A stretch of 64,000 bases of DNA from Erysipelotrichaceae bacterium. GTDB lineage: Bacteria; Bacillota_I; Bacilli_A; Erysipelotrichales; Erysipelotrichaceae. Below the pieces are notes generated by a model. That model did not search any database, was not told the origin of the DNA, and saw only the letters and a program-made list of their open reading frames with translations. The translations under genes and the position numbers were made by a program. Positions 4,691 through 10,475 of the stretch are shown here, piece by piece (position 1 is the first letter of the stretch; the number at the start of each line of letters is the position of its first letter). The stretch covers positions 1 through 64,000 of the forward strand of contig JAFRIE010000024.1 in assembly GCA_017432885.1 (NCBI GenBank), in the 5' to 3' direction.

Positions 4691-6517
4691 TTATTTCAGA
4701 ATATAAGTGAGCTTTCTGATGATATCCCGATCGGCAGCCAGATAATGGATGCGGTAATCCGTTCCATACTCTTCCAGCAGGCGGTTGACCATCTCTTCGA
4801 CAGCCGGCAGTTCTTCGTTCTCCACCAGAGCCGGATGCAGCTTCAGTTCCGGATCGTTTGCCCTGCGACCCTCGTACTTCCGGATGATCCCCGCTGTCTG
4901 TTTCTCATCCGCCTTACGCCAGCCGTGGGTACGTTCATAGGCGTTCCAGCGTTCATGTTCCGCATCGGCCATCCGTTTCATGTTTTCCTCTTTACTCAGC
5001 CATTCATCAATGAATTCCTTCTCTGAGCGGGTATCATCTTTCTTGAACTGAAGAATATACTTCTGTTTATAAGTCATGGCCAGAGCCTGGGCAAAAGACG
5101 ACTCCTGATTCTGATACTGGTAGAATCCGCTGTCTTTCAGGATCTTTTCCTTTTCTTTTGGATCAACTTCTGTCGACAGCATATATGAGAGATGAACACG
5201 TTCTGCCGCTTCTTCCAGTTTCGGATTTACCAGTTTATCGTAACGGATGGTCTTTTTCGGATCGCCGAAGAGAATGATGTCGTTTTCCCGGATCATTTTA
5301 TGGAAGTCCGGATCGTTGATACGGCACATGATCCTTGGACAGGACAGATCTTCGTTTCTGCCGCTTAACGTACGTCTGACTTTCATCGCGGTATCATAGG
5401 ACTGTTTATCGTCTTCATACAGTACGAAGACCAGATCCGGATCTTCCAGAAGTTCTGCCTCTTTCCCGTAGTTACAGGTAAATACCTTTACCGGATACGG
5501 GACGATCTCCGGATTTTCCTCTTTCAAAGATTCATACAGCCGGTCGCTTTTCGGGCCGATCAGAGAAATGGAATAGGATCCCTCCGGCTTGATCAGCAGC
5601 CAGATCAGATCCGTCAGGAAAGGTTTTGCTGCTTCATTGTCGGCAATCAGGGCGACATTACATTCCTGTTTCACTGCCAGAATATCGCTACAGAAGGACA
5701 GCGCATCGATCGCCATGGCGGCATTCTCGTCAACATGTCTAAGATAGATCCTATTGGAATACTGCCGGTCCAGATTCAGGATCAGTTCTCTCTGGTTCTG
5801 GGAAGCGAAGATCCTGACGATCACATTACCCGCTTCATAGGCATCCTGTTTCAGCAGTTCCTCACAGAGTTTCGCTGCCGCCTTGATCCGGTCGGTCTCC
5901 TCGCCGTCGATCTCAAAGAATTCATATTTTCTGTTTCGAAACAGTTTTATCCGGTAGTCTTCTCCATCCAGCAGAAGCGCCCTAAGGCTTCTGGCACTGC
6001 TTGCCAGCGTCGGGTCACAGCCTTTGCTGCTGCAGAAGACGACCGTAGCGTCTTTATCCTTCTCCATGACACTTTCAGCAATCAGCAATGATTTCTCGTT
6101 CAGACCGGAGAACACATAGAAGTGTTTCCCCGTCAGCAGAGATAAAGCATTTCTGAATTTGGCAAAAAAGGACACCAGAAACATCGAACCGGCAATCGGT
6201 CCGAAGATGTACAGGGCGTAGAGAAAGAAACGAAAGACCCGGAAAGAAAGCCGGTCTAGTTCCATGTCATAGGGAATATCGCCGTTCACACCCATGGCAA
6301 CACCGGAAAGACCGGAACGGATGCTTTCAATAATGGCGATCGGCAGATCGCTGTATTGCAGATTGTATGGAAAAGTCAGGATGCCGATGGCCAAGGAAAT
6401 GGCACCGGTCAAAGTCAGAGTCATAGCCTGAAAATCATTTCTTTTTCCGATCGCCCTGATGACCCCTATCAGGATCACGATCAGCGCTGCGGCCATATAT
6501 ATTGTCATGTGTTTCAT
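4691..6517 (-). CDS. Membrane protein with Rossmann-like domains and C-terminal RyR domain
   Basis: A 608-aa protein. The reading frame opens at 6559, but the ATG at 6517 has CAGGGAGA upstream and begins the first membrane helix. Three hydrophobic segments are predicted (about 6-22, 32-49, 95-119). They precede a cytosolic part starting GKHFYVFSGLNEKS (about 131), a Rossmann/TrkA-N-like nucleotide-binding strand-loop-helix. A second such unit starts near NVALIADNEAA. The C-terminus (about 510-585) has MADAEHERWNAYERTHGW, a ryanodine-receptor (RyR) domain signature. RyR and TrkA-like domains have been linked in the literature to nucleotide-sensing conflict systems. It is divergent from a TIR protein gene, 121 bp apart. 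I infer a membrane sensor or channel; the ligand is unknown. Confidence 0.65.
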   Translation of the reverse strand: MKHMTIYMAAALIVILIGVIRAIGKRNDFQAMTLTLTGAISLAIGILTFPYNLQYSDLPIAIIESIRSGLSGVAMGVNGDIPYDMELDRLSFRVFRFFLYALYIFGPIAGSMFLVSFFAKFRNALSLLTGKHFYVFSGLNEKSLLIAESVMEKDKDATVVFCSSKGCDPTLASSARSLRALLLDGEDYRIKLFRNRKYEFFEIDGEETDRIKAAAKLCEELLKQDAYEAGNVIVRIFASQNQRELILNLDRQYSNRIYLRHVDENAAMAIDALSFCSDILAVKQECNVALIADNEAAKPFLTDLIWLLIKPEGSYSISLIGPKSDRLYESLKEENPEIVPYPVKVFTCNYGKEAELLEDPDLVFVLYEDDKQSYDTAMKVRRTLSGRNEDLSCPRIMCRINDPDFHKMIRENDIILFGDPKKTIRYDKLVNPKLEEAAERVHLSYMLSTEVDPKEKEKILKDSGFYQYQNQESSFAQALAMTYKQKYILQFKKDDTRSEKEFIDEWLSKEENMKRMADAEHERWNAYERTHGWRKADEKQTAGIIRKYEGRRANDPELKLHPALVENEELPAVEEMVNRLLEEYGTDYRIHYLAADRDIIRKLTYILK

Positions 6518-6577
6518 TTCTGTTTCTCCCTGTTGCTTATTATTTATTATACATCGCAAAAAGGGGTCTCCTTACTT

Positions 6578-6583
6578 TATAAT
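6578..6583 (+). promoter_or_regulatory. Candidate -10 of the TIR gene
   Basis: TATAAT occurs 55 bp before the TIR start in the 121-bp divergent region. No convincing -35 box precedes it. Another TATAAT on the minus strand (complement of about 6546-6551) could serve the RyR gene, also without a clear -35. Confidence 0.35.
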
Positions 6584-6638
6584 TATCTTATAGAAGAATC
6601 CGGCTTGATCATCATTCAGGAAACATAAGAGGTATGCT

Positions 6639-8666
6639 ATGGCAGAGAAAGTATTCATCAGCTATTCCCATCAGGACCATGCCTGTGCCCATGGAATAGC
6701 CCGTTATCTAAGCAGACACGGCTGTGACGTATGGATCGACTCACAGAATCTGGAACTGGGTGACCGATGGGCAAATGACATCGAAGCTGCTTTACAGGAG
6801 GCCGACATCACTGTCGGTATTCTTTCTTCCTCTTCTTTAAGAAGACCTGAAGTACTGAAAGAAATCAACTATTCCCTGAACAGAATGAAAGAGGAAGGAA
6901 CAGAAAAGTTCCGGGTCTTTTTCGTGGTCATCGGTCAGATTCATCCGTCCTGGTTCAAAAACGACGGCAGCTGCGAGGAGATCAGAAATTACCTTTCCCA
7001 GTATCAGTACATCGGACTTAGTGCCTATGGGGAAGTAACGATCGATGCGATGAAGAAACTGTTTACGGCGATCCGCCGCAAGGGGATCGAAGAAGATAAC
7101 ACGGTCTTGATCCATACAAATGAAGACAACGGCTTTATCAATCAGAATTCCCTGCCGGAAAAGGCTTTTGACAACAGAAACAGCAGCATCTACTACAAAG
7201 TCTATGCCGCCGACCTGGCTTCTTCTGCCGTTTATCCTTTTGCCTTAGATTCCCAATGGCTTCCGGAACTGTTCTATGATGCGGGAAGCGGATACTACGG
7301 TGAATTCGAGAAAGAAGGCTTTGCCTCTGACAGGGTAAAGGAATATCTCAAATCCTACAAGAAAAGAAACTTCACTTTGTCCTTCTTTCACTATAAACAG
7401 ATCATCATGAAGCTGAACAGCATTCTGTATGAACCGTATTTCCAGGAACTGCTTCAAAACGAAGGAGAAGACAAGGAAGCGCTGAAACGTCTCTTATCCA
7501 ACGGCAGTATCGTCGTACTGTTAAATAACAAGCAGATGACGCCTTTTATACACGGCTACAGGAAAGACGATCCTGTCTGTAAAGCCTGGAACGATTTGTG
7601 TGAGGAGGTTCCGATCTACTGCATCCGGGAAAACTGGGCGCTCTCCAACGATGAACACAGCAAGGATTTTCTGCGTTTCTGTTCCAATCTGGCCATGGAT
7701 CACAGCAACAACATCCTTCTTGCCCAGGCCATGCATCTGGATGAGAACCAGATCAACAACTTCCTGATAACGCTAAAGACCATATCCATGCAGTCGTTCT
7801 GCCAGACCCACATGAACGGAACCCAGTCCCAGGACAAAGTCGACGACTACAGCAGATCTGTCTTCTACCGCAACTATATTGTGAAAGCAAACGAAGAAGC
7901 TTCTCTGAATCCCGTCTACGCATGTCTCTTTGATCCGAACAAGCCGTTCCATCATGAACTGAAGAAACTGATCGACATCTACTACAACTCCATCTTCACA
8001 AGAACTCTGCAGTGCGACGCTCTGCTTCCGGACGACGTGCTTCCGGAGAACTACTATCTGCACAGCCTTTATCTGGACAATGGGGAAAAGGAAGTCAGCA
8101 TCGAGGAACTGGAATACGCCTTCTCGGAATTCTTCGACAACTGCGAGATCCTGGATGAGATCACGGCCATTGGAGATAATCTGTATCTGAAAAACTACGA
8201 TCTACAAAAGATCACCGATTTAAGAGACAAGGAAGCCTGGTATGAATATGTCGAACTGCTGGAACTGATCAACCGGCGTTCCAATTCCTGGAAAGTGGAT
8301 TTCAATGAGATCGAACTGCTGCTGCAGCGTTTCCTGCGGTGCTTTGAGACATCGGAAAAGGTAACGGAAGACAAGGATATTGCCTTCAGTTTCCGGGTCG
8401 TGATCGGTTCAAAAGTTCTGGATATCGTAAAAACATCCAAGATCGCCAAGGTCAAGGAATACGGAGGATCCTTTGCCGATCCCAACCGCATCCCTCTTAA
8501 AGTCCTGTTCACGATCTCGGATCTGACCAGAGAGGACAGGGAAGAACTTGTCTTCCTGCCTGTATCCCTGTTCAGCGGCCGTATCGATACCTCTGACGGA
8601 GAAGGCTTCTTCAACAGTCTAAAAGAGTTTATCATCAAACAGTGCGGATTCATTCCGGTCAATTAA
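6639..8666 (+). CDS. TIR-domain protein with large uncharacterised C-terminal region
   Basis: A 675-aa protein. Residues 1-about 150 are a bacterial TIR domain: VFISYSHQD (box 1), GCDVWIDSQNLELGDRW (BB loop region) and ILSSSSLRRPEVLKEINYSL, with Glu71/Glu75 in the helix that carries the catalytic glutamate of TIR NADases. The remaining 500 residues match no domain I recognise. They are soluble, rich in aromatic and acidic residues, and predicted mixed alpha/beta. Bacterial TIR proteins commonly degrade NAD+ or make signalling nucleotides in anti-phage defence, with the C-terminal part sensing the trigger. The start ATG follows an AGAGGT site. It is divergent from the RyR membrane protein and convergent with the LGH-repeat membrane protein. 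Confidence 0.8.
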   Translation: MAEKVFISYSHQDHACAHGIARYLSRHGCDVWIDSQNLELGDRWANDIEAALQEADITVGILSSSSLRRPEVLKEINYSLNRMKEEGTEKFRVFFVVIGQIHPSWFKNDGSCEEIRNYLSQYQYIGLSAYGEVTIDAMKKLFTAIRRKGIEEDNTVLIHTNEDNGFINQNSLPEKAFDNRNSSIYYKVYAADLASSAVYPFALDSQWLPELFYDAGSGYYGEFEKEGFASDRVKEYLKSYKKRNFTLSFFHYKQIIMKLNSILYEPYFQELLQNEGEDKEALKRLLSNGSIVVLLNNKQMTPFIHGYRKDDPVCKAWNDLCEEVPIYCIRENWALSNDEHSKDFLRFCSNLAMDHSNNILLAQAMHLDENQINNFLITLKTISMQSFCQTHMNGTQSQDKVDDYSRSVFYRNYIVKANEEASLNPVYACLFDPNKPFHHELKKLIDIYYNSIFTRTLQCDALLPDDVLPENYYLHSLYLDNGEKEVSIEELEYAFSEFFDNCEILDEITAIGDNLYLKNYDLQKITDLRDKEAWYEYVELLELINRRSNSWKVDFNEIELLLQRFLRCFETSEKVTEDKDIAFSFRVVIGSKVLDIVKTSKIAKVKEYGGSFADPNRIPLKVLFTISDLTREDREELVFLPVSLFSGRIDTSDGEGFFNSLKEFIIKQCGFIPVN

Positions 8667-8714: not shown

Positions 8715-10475
8715 TCAGCCTTTATCCGCAAGATCCGATACGACTTCAACGATATCCTTGACTGCGCTGTGTGCACCCTTGGCTTCATGAGCGCCGGCTT
8801 CTTCATCAAGCGCGTCTTTTACTGAGTTGACGTCATCGACCAGTCCGGCAACGGATGCGACAGTATCCATGCCCAGGATGGATGCCAGATCGGAAATGAC
8901 GGTTGCAACGGAAGAAACGTTCAGTTCTCCTTCCTCGATCGTGGACTTGATGTCCTTTCCCGATTCATAGGTGCTGATGATCGTCGATACATACGAAATG
9001 CCCAGAGCATCCGCGATCATTCCGATATTGTCCAGCGCCGCATCCGATTTAAGCTTCGGTTTCAGAACCGGAAGTACCAGCTTGATCAGATTGGTGTTCG
9101 GATCATCACCGATCAGACCGTAATCGAGGATGTTCTTGTCTTTCTTTAACGTTTCCAATTCATCCCTGTACCTGTCGAAGAATTTCTGCGGACACAGATA
9201 GGCAAAACTTGTTTCAGCCAGAGGATTGGTCTTTTCTTCCTCTCCTTCTGTCTGCTTAGGAACTGCCTGTCTCTTCTTATCCAGTTCTTTCAGTTTTTTC
9301 TTCGTAGGAATGTCGATGATGACCAGATCCGGTCCGTTTTCTTCTACGCTCTTCTCGAGTTCCTCGAAATCGCAGGAGGATACGGCAAGGAAATGCTTGC
9401 TCTTAAGCAACTCACGCAACTTCTCATCTTCACTACTGATGACGATTGTCCTGTCTTCAAAAGTCGGTTTTCCGAATTCCTTGACGGCTTTCTCTGCCAG
9501 CTTACCGGCTCTGCGTTTCTTCAGGAACATCCATAGACCTCCTGTCGCAGTAACAACGACCGTACTGCTGATAATGATCGGAACTGGATTTTTCCTAGGA
9601 AGAACATGTTCCAGAATATGACCGCAGTAGTAGCACTCCTTAGTTTCCAGACCGTTTTCCGTATAGGTCGCTTCCTTGACCAGTGTCCATTCTTTCGGAT
9701 ACTTGTGTCCGGCAGGCAGGATCTTTTCTGTCCATGTTTCTGAGCACCTCCTGCAGGTAGCCCTTCTTTCCCCTTCTTCCTCGCAGGTCGGGGTCTTCAG
9801 GATCTCGTATTCCAGGTCATGTCCCAGGGCAGGATAGAATTCGTCAACGGTCATTCCACATCTCTTGCAGCTGCCTTTCCTGTAGCCGTCTTCCGTACAG
9901 GTGGCTTCCTTCTCTTCGTAATCGATGTCATGGCCTAAAGCAGCTACTTTCTTTGTGTAACTGTCGTTACATCTGGAGCAGGTATAAGTGTTGATTCCAT
10001 CTTCTTCGCAGGTTGCTGCCTTGGTTGTCTGTTTCTTGTAGTTATGGCCTAAAGCCTTGATTGTTTCGTCTTCAGTCTTGCCACACCTGCTGCATACTTT
10101 GTGTAAGGTTCCATCTTCCGTACAGCTTGCTTTTTTGGTTACTGTTTCTGTAAAGCTGTGCCCTAAAGGAGGTGCATAAGACAGCTCTGATCGAATAAAA
10201 GGAGAGTTATCCTGAGCTACGTGTGCAGCGGTATTGTAACAGTACACTTCAGCAAAGGCACCTTCTGTACAGGTTGGCCCATCGCTATCTATCCAGTCAC
10301 ATTCTAGAGGCTGTCCACACCATGGACAATTTCCAAAATCATAGGCAAATACTCTATGTACATGTACATGTAAAGGGTTCTCGCAGTCGTCGTGCTCCTC
10401 GCTATGATATACCGCATAGGAAAAACCGCTAAAAATCAGTACTGCAATCAGGAACTTGATAATGATCTTTTTCAT
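8715..10475 (-). CDS. Membrane protein with extracellular LGH/zinc-ribbon repeats and a receiver-like cytosolic domain
   Basis: A 586-aa protein. Residues 1-22 are a signal peptide or signal anchor. A cysteine/histidine-rich part (CPWCG at 50-54) leads into about five tandem units of 35-40 residues, roughly 104-285. Each has the form ALGH...ATC-T/E-EDG...C-x-RC-G, repeats frequent in surface proteins of Bacillota. A transmembrane helix spans about 298-318 (VPIIISSTVVVTATGG...). The cytosolic side begins RTIVISSEDEKLRELL...DLVIIDIP (about 345-395), reminiscent of a response-regulator receiver but with no clear phosphoacceptor. A charged linker and an alpha-helical tail follow. It is preceded by an AGGAGAAGG site. 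The role is unknown; surface sensing is an inference. Confidence 0.6.
   Translation of the reverse strand: MKKIIIKFLIAVLIFSGFSYAVYHSEEHDDCENPLHVHVHRVFAYDFGNCPWCGQPLECDWIDSDGPTCTEGAFAEVYCYNTAAHVAQDNSPFIRSELSYAPPLGHSFTETVTKKASCTEDGTLHKVCSRCGKTEDETIKALGHNYKKQTTKAATCEEDGINTYTCSRCNDSYTKKVAALGHDIDYEEKEATCTEDGYRKGSCKRCGMTVDEFYPALGHDLEYEILKTPTCEEEGERRATCRRCSETWTEKILPAGHKYPKEWTLVKEATYTENGLETKECYYCGHILEHVLPRKNPVPIIISSTVVVTATGGLWMFLKKRRAGKLAEKAVKEFGKPTFEDRTIVISSEDEKLRELLKSKHFLAVSSCDFEELEKSVEENGPDLVIIDIPTKKKLKELDKKRQAVPKQTEGEEEKTNPLAETSFAYLCPQKFFDRYRDELETLKKDKNILDYGLIGDDPNTNLIKLVLPVLKPKLKSDAALDNIGMIADALGISYVSTIISTYESGKDIKSTIEEGELNVSSVATVISDLASILGMDTVASVAGLVDDVNSVKDALDEEAGAHEAKGAHSAVKDIVEVVSDLADKG

Follow-up and report, generated by a model that had tools for sequence, protein, structure and literature searches.

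A TIR gene and its RyR-bearing, RCK-like membrane partner as a candidate nucleotide-signalling pair in Erysipelotrichaceae

Introduction

Do a TIR protein and a membrane protein with a ryanodine receptor (RyR) domain, encoded by divergent genes of an Erysipelotrichaceae bacterium, form a system in which one partner makes a nucleotide signal and the other answers it at the membrane? The two genes occupy positions 4,691 to 8,666 of the window, by which we mean the whole 64,000-nucleotide stretch analysed (positions 1 to 64,000 of contig JAFRIE010000024.1, GenBank assembly GCA_017432885.1; source genome 1.8 Mb, 73% complete). The original prediction, made from the DNA letters, took them for a possible two-part defence system. 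We conclude, with a probability of about 0.6, that they act as a nucleotide signalling system in two parts, in which the TIR protein would make a signal derived from nicotinamide adenine dinucleotide (NAD), the RyR domain would bind it, and a gating ring would act at the membrane. This division into signal maker and membrane actor is supported by the predicted gating-ring fold of the membrane protein, by RyR ligand residues that are conserved when set against published biochemistry of RyR domains and cyclic ADP-ribose (cADPR), and by relatives that are K+ channels fused to RyR domains and encoded beside TIR genes.

A TIR gene adjoins the membrane gene at most loci

Both genes were surveyed in 61 relatives, with 36 genomes in genus g1. 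Seventeen genomes hold the 675-aa TIR protein at full or almost full length (from residue 132 on in G016), and G009 has it as a contig-edge fragment; the membrane protein was also found in 17, and for both proteins all 17 belong to g1. The two genes stand head-to-head in 11 genomes. Elsewhere the membrane gene instead abuts a gene for a different TIR protein (G014, G029, G032, G035, G016), with one transmembrane (TM) helix, a basic stretch ahead of it and a large propeller-like region behind; all three genes are unlinked in G028. Over the 32 full-length loci of the membrane family, drawn from several Bacillota families, the adjoining gene encodes a TIR protein in 24, which bears out conservation of the pair beyond this genome (22 of 30 loci from examination of neighbourhoods, plus G027 and G016 by coordinates; L132 and L140, from one metagenome-assembled genome (MAG), count separately). 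Named homologues are mostly Erysipelotrichaceae and Solobacterium MAGs, many from the ruminant gut, with further ones among Oscillospiraceae, Christensenellaceae, Faecalibacterium, Ruminococcus and Clostridia MAGs.

Could these be unrelated neighbours, an NAD+-depleting TIR protein beside an ordinary RCK membrane protein? Pfam is silent on the window membrane protein and unlinked copies occur, both in keeping with such an accident. However, chance alone would be expected to yield adjacency at only about 0.07 of the 17 loci in the 17 g1 genomes, which hold 68 TIR genes, and the TIR partners observed are of two dissimilar kinds, the cytosolic 675-aa type and the TIR-TM-propeller type. Three arrangements occur: the 675-aa TIR gene is divergent from the membrane gene, and the propeller-type gene is either co-directional with it or divergent from it (L125, L127). 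We regard an accidental pairing as highly improbable; judged from sequence conservation of both genes, the pair is not chance. At one locus (L090, G173:C23, 4125-10815) the RyR membrane gene is flanked by TIR genes of different types on both sides.

Within the 36 g1 genomes, 16 carry both the 675-aa TIR and the membrane protein, one or two the TIR only, one the membrane protein only and 17 or 18 neither; genomes at least 85% complete divide into nine with both, 11 with neither and none mixed. This co-occurrence is strong and extends to genomes where the genes are unlinked. Host relatedness explains part of it; the Fisher p-values for the pattern ignore this and are not to be read literally. 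The joint label changes about six times on a MetRS tree of 30 genomes, at least three changes being forced by well-supported branches, and only one change is forced on an RpoB tree of 24 genomes; between them the two trees give no decision on horizontal transfer of the pair, which we considered.

The membrane proteins with a 675-aa TIR partner fall into a single clade (support 100/100). Outside this clade the usual partner is the TIR-TM-propeller protein, which accompanies most of the remaining rows of the tree, themselves from several Bacillota families. The TIR-propeller genes of G012, G013, G023 and G027, which have no adjacent membrane gene, group beside those of the genus that do. By these groupings it is as if the membrane gene had changed its TIR partner.

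A predicted gating ring with a divergent RyR domain

The membrane protein has no match in Pfam, PADLOC or NCBIfam. Its AlphaFold model is confident (19 sequences; mean predicted local distance difference test (pLDDT) score 89.9, predicted TM-score (pTM) 0.78) and contains the three TM helices originally predicted, two Rossmann units and a helical C-terminal domain. By VIA-align, residues 128-504 of the model fit the gating ring of MtDMI1 (Z 17.6, root-mean-square deviation (rmsd) 4.8, 312 aligned); further matches are LjCASTOR (Z 16.9), TrkA (Z 15.5) and GsuK (Z 14.7, model range 26-451, rmsd 8.7). The model thus has a tandem RCK fold, and the nucleotide-binding part earlier called TrkA-like, on which Pfam is silent, resembles RCK and TrkA gating rings in predicted structure. 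A short helix (55-70) ahead of the last TM helix looks re-entrant in the model. The loop behind it, AMGVNGD, sits at the place of the K+ filter and lacks the TVGYG signature of a K+-channel pore loop.

The C-terminal RyR domain of the original prediction holds up as a divergent one. The five best PDB matches of the C-terminal profile are ryanodine receptors (E 0.03-0.1), and Pfam RyR (PF02026) matches four of 15 relatives at E of at most 1, the best at 0.0032; the window protein itself has no match above the Pfam cut-off, and two K+-channel relatives score 26.6 and 27.1 bits against a cut-off of 27.4. The domain is divergent but, by its residue pattern, real. The phage RyR-domain protein RyDEP is reported to cleave 2'/3'cADPR, with ligand contacts H75, W78, H100 and D117 (PMC13232231). 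An EH.RW motif is present in all 33 RyR-bearing proteins that we compared, and the second His was found by pattern in 32 of them. The three K+-channel relatives scored have the spacing of RyDEP, 25 from His to His and 17 from His to Asp; in the window protein the figures are 40 and, to the Asp/Asn position, 17.

Might the RyR protein be a brake rather than an effector, removing or sequestering the TIR signal at the membrane? Such a role has precedent in the phage proteins: RyDEP cleaves the signals and its homologues sequester them, six of eight binding 2'/3'cADPR signals in a shift assay and none of the others tested cleaving them (PMC13232231). Of the 16 other full-family rows, 14 also have Asp at the catalytic position; G173 has Asn and L125 was unscored. 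By contrast, this position is Asn in all ten membrane proteins scored from the 11 genomes with a 675-aa TIR partner, the window protein included (all but G027 were scored). Because Asn stands in place of the catalytic Asp, the window protein's RyR domain is predicted to bind without cleaving. A brake would, moreover, need neither TM helices nor a gating ring, and related proteins are K+ channels. We therefore consider this role improbable, and the RyR domain is better read as the receptor of the signalling pair.

Searches with the membrane protein matched 25 of 244 genomes of the order and seven of 392 of the phylum, many matches being partial or distant. They include a sister branch in which the membrane protein adjoins an Ion_trans_2-RyR protein with a TTVGYGD filter. 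Counting each genome once and requiring enough flank (G196 and G238, cut by contig ends, were excluded), a TIR gene lies at most two genes from the K+-channel-RyR gene in six of seven genomes (G170, G186, G197, G216, G221, G235; not G176). Diverged relatives without the filter (G169, G201) also adjoin genes with TIR-like matches. Further RyR-type membrane proteins are encoded next to SIR2-like genes (L153) or a TIR-methyltransferase (L155); the former case suggests that RyR sensors also partner other NAD+ enzymes.

Some loci deserve description. At L153 (G471:C31, 626-5478) a diverged RyR-Rossmann protein is adjoined by two SIR2-like genes. At L156 (G465:C28, 270-12629) a single cluster holds a TIR-NACHT-APH-TPR gene, a ClpP-like gene and two RyR-type membrane proteins. 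At L244 and L245 (G197, G186) a RyR membrane gene and a K+-channel-RyR gene are followed by a gene for a protein of about 900 aa and two TIR genes.

A TIR domain with an unassigned C-terminal region

The TIR domain (Pfam TIR_2, E 9.7e-21, residues 5-103) and its putative NAD-cleaving glutamate were confirmed at the sequence level: Glu75 is invariant in all 15 aligned homologues and aligns with Glu77 of SPARTA TIR chains, which we take to be the catalytic residue. Among solved structures, the TIR-domain profile is nearest to the SPARTA TIR-APAZ, BtTir and AbTir chains (HMMER).

The large C-terminus was rightly described as unassigned. Its 536 residues (140-675) are highly conserved within g1, have no Pfam, PADLOC or NCBIfam assignment and find no credible PDB match by profile. 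Homologues among the 244 order genomes occur only in g1; among the 392 phylum genomes only the source genome itself matched, and no credible wider homologue was found. One further phylum-wide match, with nine stops, was dropped as noise. The AlphaFold model is poor outside the TIR domain (mean pLDDT 51), and the Foldseek rows are nearly all TIR domains, apart from two plant TIR-NLR chains with longer but poor alignments; the C-terminus is therefore left without structural assignment.

Gene layout and genomic context

The features of the locus are collected in Table 1. The open reading frame (ORF) tool placed the start of the membrane gene at TTG 6559; ATG 6517 has an upstream Shine-Dalgarno-like GGGAG and, taken as the start, yields exactly the 121-bp spacing of the divergent pair first described. 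A consensus scan of the intergenic region found no sigma-70-like promoter.

Table 1. Features of the TIR-membrane protein locus in window coordinates. Helix positions of the membrane part are numbered from the Met at 6508.
Feature	Position	Strand	Basis
TIR protein gene, 675 aa	6639..8666, stop codon within	+	ORF list; Pfam TIR_2; full-length homologues at least 61% identical in genus g1
TIR domain, residues 5-103	6651..6947	+	Pfam; Foldseek; HMMER matches to SPARTA, BtTir, AbTir and SARM1 TIR chains
Glu75 codon, putative NAD-cleaving glutamate	6861..6863	+	invariant 15/15; aligned with SPARTA TIR Glu77
TIR protein C-terminal region, residues 140-675	7056..8663	+	no Pfam or credible PDB match; strong conservation in genus only
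Divergent intergenic region, 121 bp	6518..6638		ORF coordinates
Membrane protein gene, 608 aa from ATG 6517: three TM helices, tandem RCK-like gating ring, RyR domain	4691..6517	-
Membrane part: TM helices 2-21, 26-52, 86-126 and re-entrant-like helix 55-70	6131..6508	-	AlphaFold model; hydropathy
Tandem Rossmann/RCK gating-ring-like region, about residues 128-430	5219..6127	-	structure matches MtDMI1, LjCASTOR, TrkA, GsuK
Divergent RyR (R12) domain, residues 496-604	4697..5023	-	profile, Pfam, motif comparison
RyR-domain codons: His; Trp; His; Asn (Asp in most relatives)	4955-4957; 4946-4948; 4835-4837; 4784-4786	-

By eye, the flanking genes are metabolic or housekeeping (phosphotransferase system, glycogen, EF-P, ABC-transport and similar) and do not resemble a defence island. 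The TIR C-terminus has no relatives in viral contigs or phage records (plasmids lay outside that search), and the membrane protein none in viral contigs or plasmids (phage records lay outside that one). The nucleotide-signal and membrane-action half of the original prediction is supported, but its defence half is not backed by this context. An antiphage purpose is plausible and only weakly inferred, and the surroundings do not support it.

The same signalling chain could instead serve envelope or ion stress, with a trigger outside the cell and an output that adjusts the flow of K+ or other ions. The layout of the common TIR-TM-propeller partner, with the propeller behind its single helix, points to a sensor that probably faces outside, and the housekeeping neighbours and empty phage, plasmid and viral collections, as far as searched, are consistent with this. 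So is one 675-aa TIR copy (G014), unlinked to a membrane gene, which lies three genes from TrkA-TrkA-TrkH-like genes, by eye and unscanned (L051, G014:C26, 1-5382). Against it, the patchy presence of each gene, in 17 of the 36 g1 genomes, looks like that of a conflict system, as do relatives with SIR2-like, TIR-NACHT or ClpP neighbours. We judge a stress role rather unlikely.

Next to the pair, positions 8715-10475 (minus strand) encode a 586-aa protein in which, by eye, two TM segments flank a Cys/His repeat ectodomain and the cytosolic part resembles a receiver. Its homologues stand tail-to-tail with the 675-aa TIR in several g1 genomes and are also widespread without it; since the family is spread over genomes that lack the pair, it is only a candidate third component.

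Discussion

The pair would represent TIR nucleotide signalling, whose Thoeris-like logic is already known, with a new sensor-effector, a membrane protein that joins RyR and RCK parts. The C-terminal region of the TIR protein may sense a trigger, upon which the TIR domain, via Glu75, would convert NAD+ to a nucleotide of the ADP-ribose type (2'/3'cADPR or one related to it). This would bind to the terminal RyR domain of the membrane protein, from which the tandem-RCK gating ring would relay the change to the membrane helices and so alter ion flow, either by opening the protein's own pore or by steering a partner channel. The NAD+ chemistry, the identity of the ligand and the gating we infer from the families to which these proteins belong.

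Several observations weigh against this reading. With GVNGD in place of GYGD and no K+ filter, a pore of the membrane protein's own is only putative. The RyR domain of the family stays under the Pfam cut-off and carries 15 extra residues between its two His. SPARTA-type TIR proteins are NAD+ depleters rather than signal makers, and the window TIR is nearest to them by profile. Co-occurrence partly follows host phylogeny, and linkage is incomplete: in G014, G028, G029 and G032 the 675-aa TIR gene and the membrane gene lie apart, TIR-propeller genes lack an adjacent membrane gene in G012, G013, G023, G027 and G028, and eight of the 32 family loci have no adjacent TIR, four with no contig end beside the membrane gene (L055, L089, L092, L131) and four with a contig end on one side (L091, L093, L094, L132).

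Several known systems resemble the pair in part. In Thoeris, the ThsB TIR protein makes a cADPR-type signal that ThsA senses. The window pair resembles it in logic alone, a TIR protein and a putative nucleotide sensor being encoded by separate genes. Neither the SLOG/SIR2 nor the Macro form of ThsA was found; the putative sensor is RyR and the output part a gating-ring membrane protein, and the TIR carries the long unmatched C-terminal region. A Pfam scan of seven genes in and around the pair found no ThsA-type partner (SLOG-SIR2 or Macro/TM), and we have therefore not filed the pair as Thoeris; in a PADLOC scan of four of the seven, ThsB-like matches covered only the TIR domain. SPARTA TIR-APAZ proteins include the nearest solved TIR relatives, whereas here we saw no Argonaute among the neighbours by eye (no Argonaute scan was made), and the C-terminal profile has no credible PDB match. 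RCK-gated channels (GsuK, Slo1, CASTOR/DMI1) and TrkA share the tandem RCK gating ring that is predicted behind the membrane helices; unlike them, the window protein combines three TM helices and no K+ filter signature with an added C-terminal RyR domain.

RyDEP and the phage RyR proteins (PMC13232231) share with the window protein the RyR (R12) domain with the His-x2-Trp and His of the cADPR pocket, and the K+-channel relatives also hold the exact residue spacing. RyDEP is, however, a free phage protein, whereas the window protein is host-chromosomal and predicted to be membrane-bound, with Asn for the catalytic Asp in its clade and the longer His-His stretch. TIR and SLATT systems likewise combine a TIR gene with a neighbouring membrane protein whose predicted role is to respond to ADP-ribose derivatives, but SLATT is a two-TM domain, in contrast to the three TM helices, RCK and RyR parts and absent Pfam match of the window protein (PMC9503650). 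In searches of open-licence literature we recognised no treatment of a TIR-RyR-RCK pair. Burroughs and colleagues compared nucleotide-centric conflict systems in a 2015 survey, which could mention RyR domains.

More tentatively, and with somewhat less than even confidence, we suggest that the pair is a bacterial prototype of the cADPR-ryanodine-receptor axis, in which a TIR-made cADPR-type nucleotide gates membrane proteins through RyR and an RCK ring; in a sister branch, plain K+ channels would carry the RyR sensor as a fusion. The pair would then be a bacterial counterpart of animal ryanodine-receptor channels, which are thought to answer NAD-derived messages. Whether cADPR acts on ryanodine receptors directly, and if so how, has long been asked; the RyDEP preprint raises the question for the R12 domain (PMC13232231). 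If true, the proposal would point to RyR domains as ancient receptors through which channels respond to cADPR-like messengers. It fits with the RyR-domain decoys carried by phages and would add a possible ion-channel output to TIR signalling. A small bacterial set of TIR enzyme, RyR-bearing channel-like protein and canonical K+-channel relatives would be tractable for measuring ligand, binding and gating.

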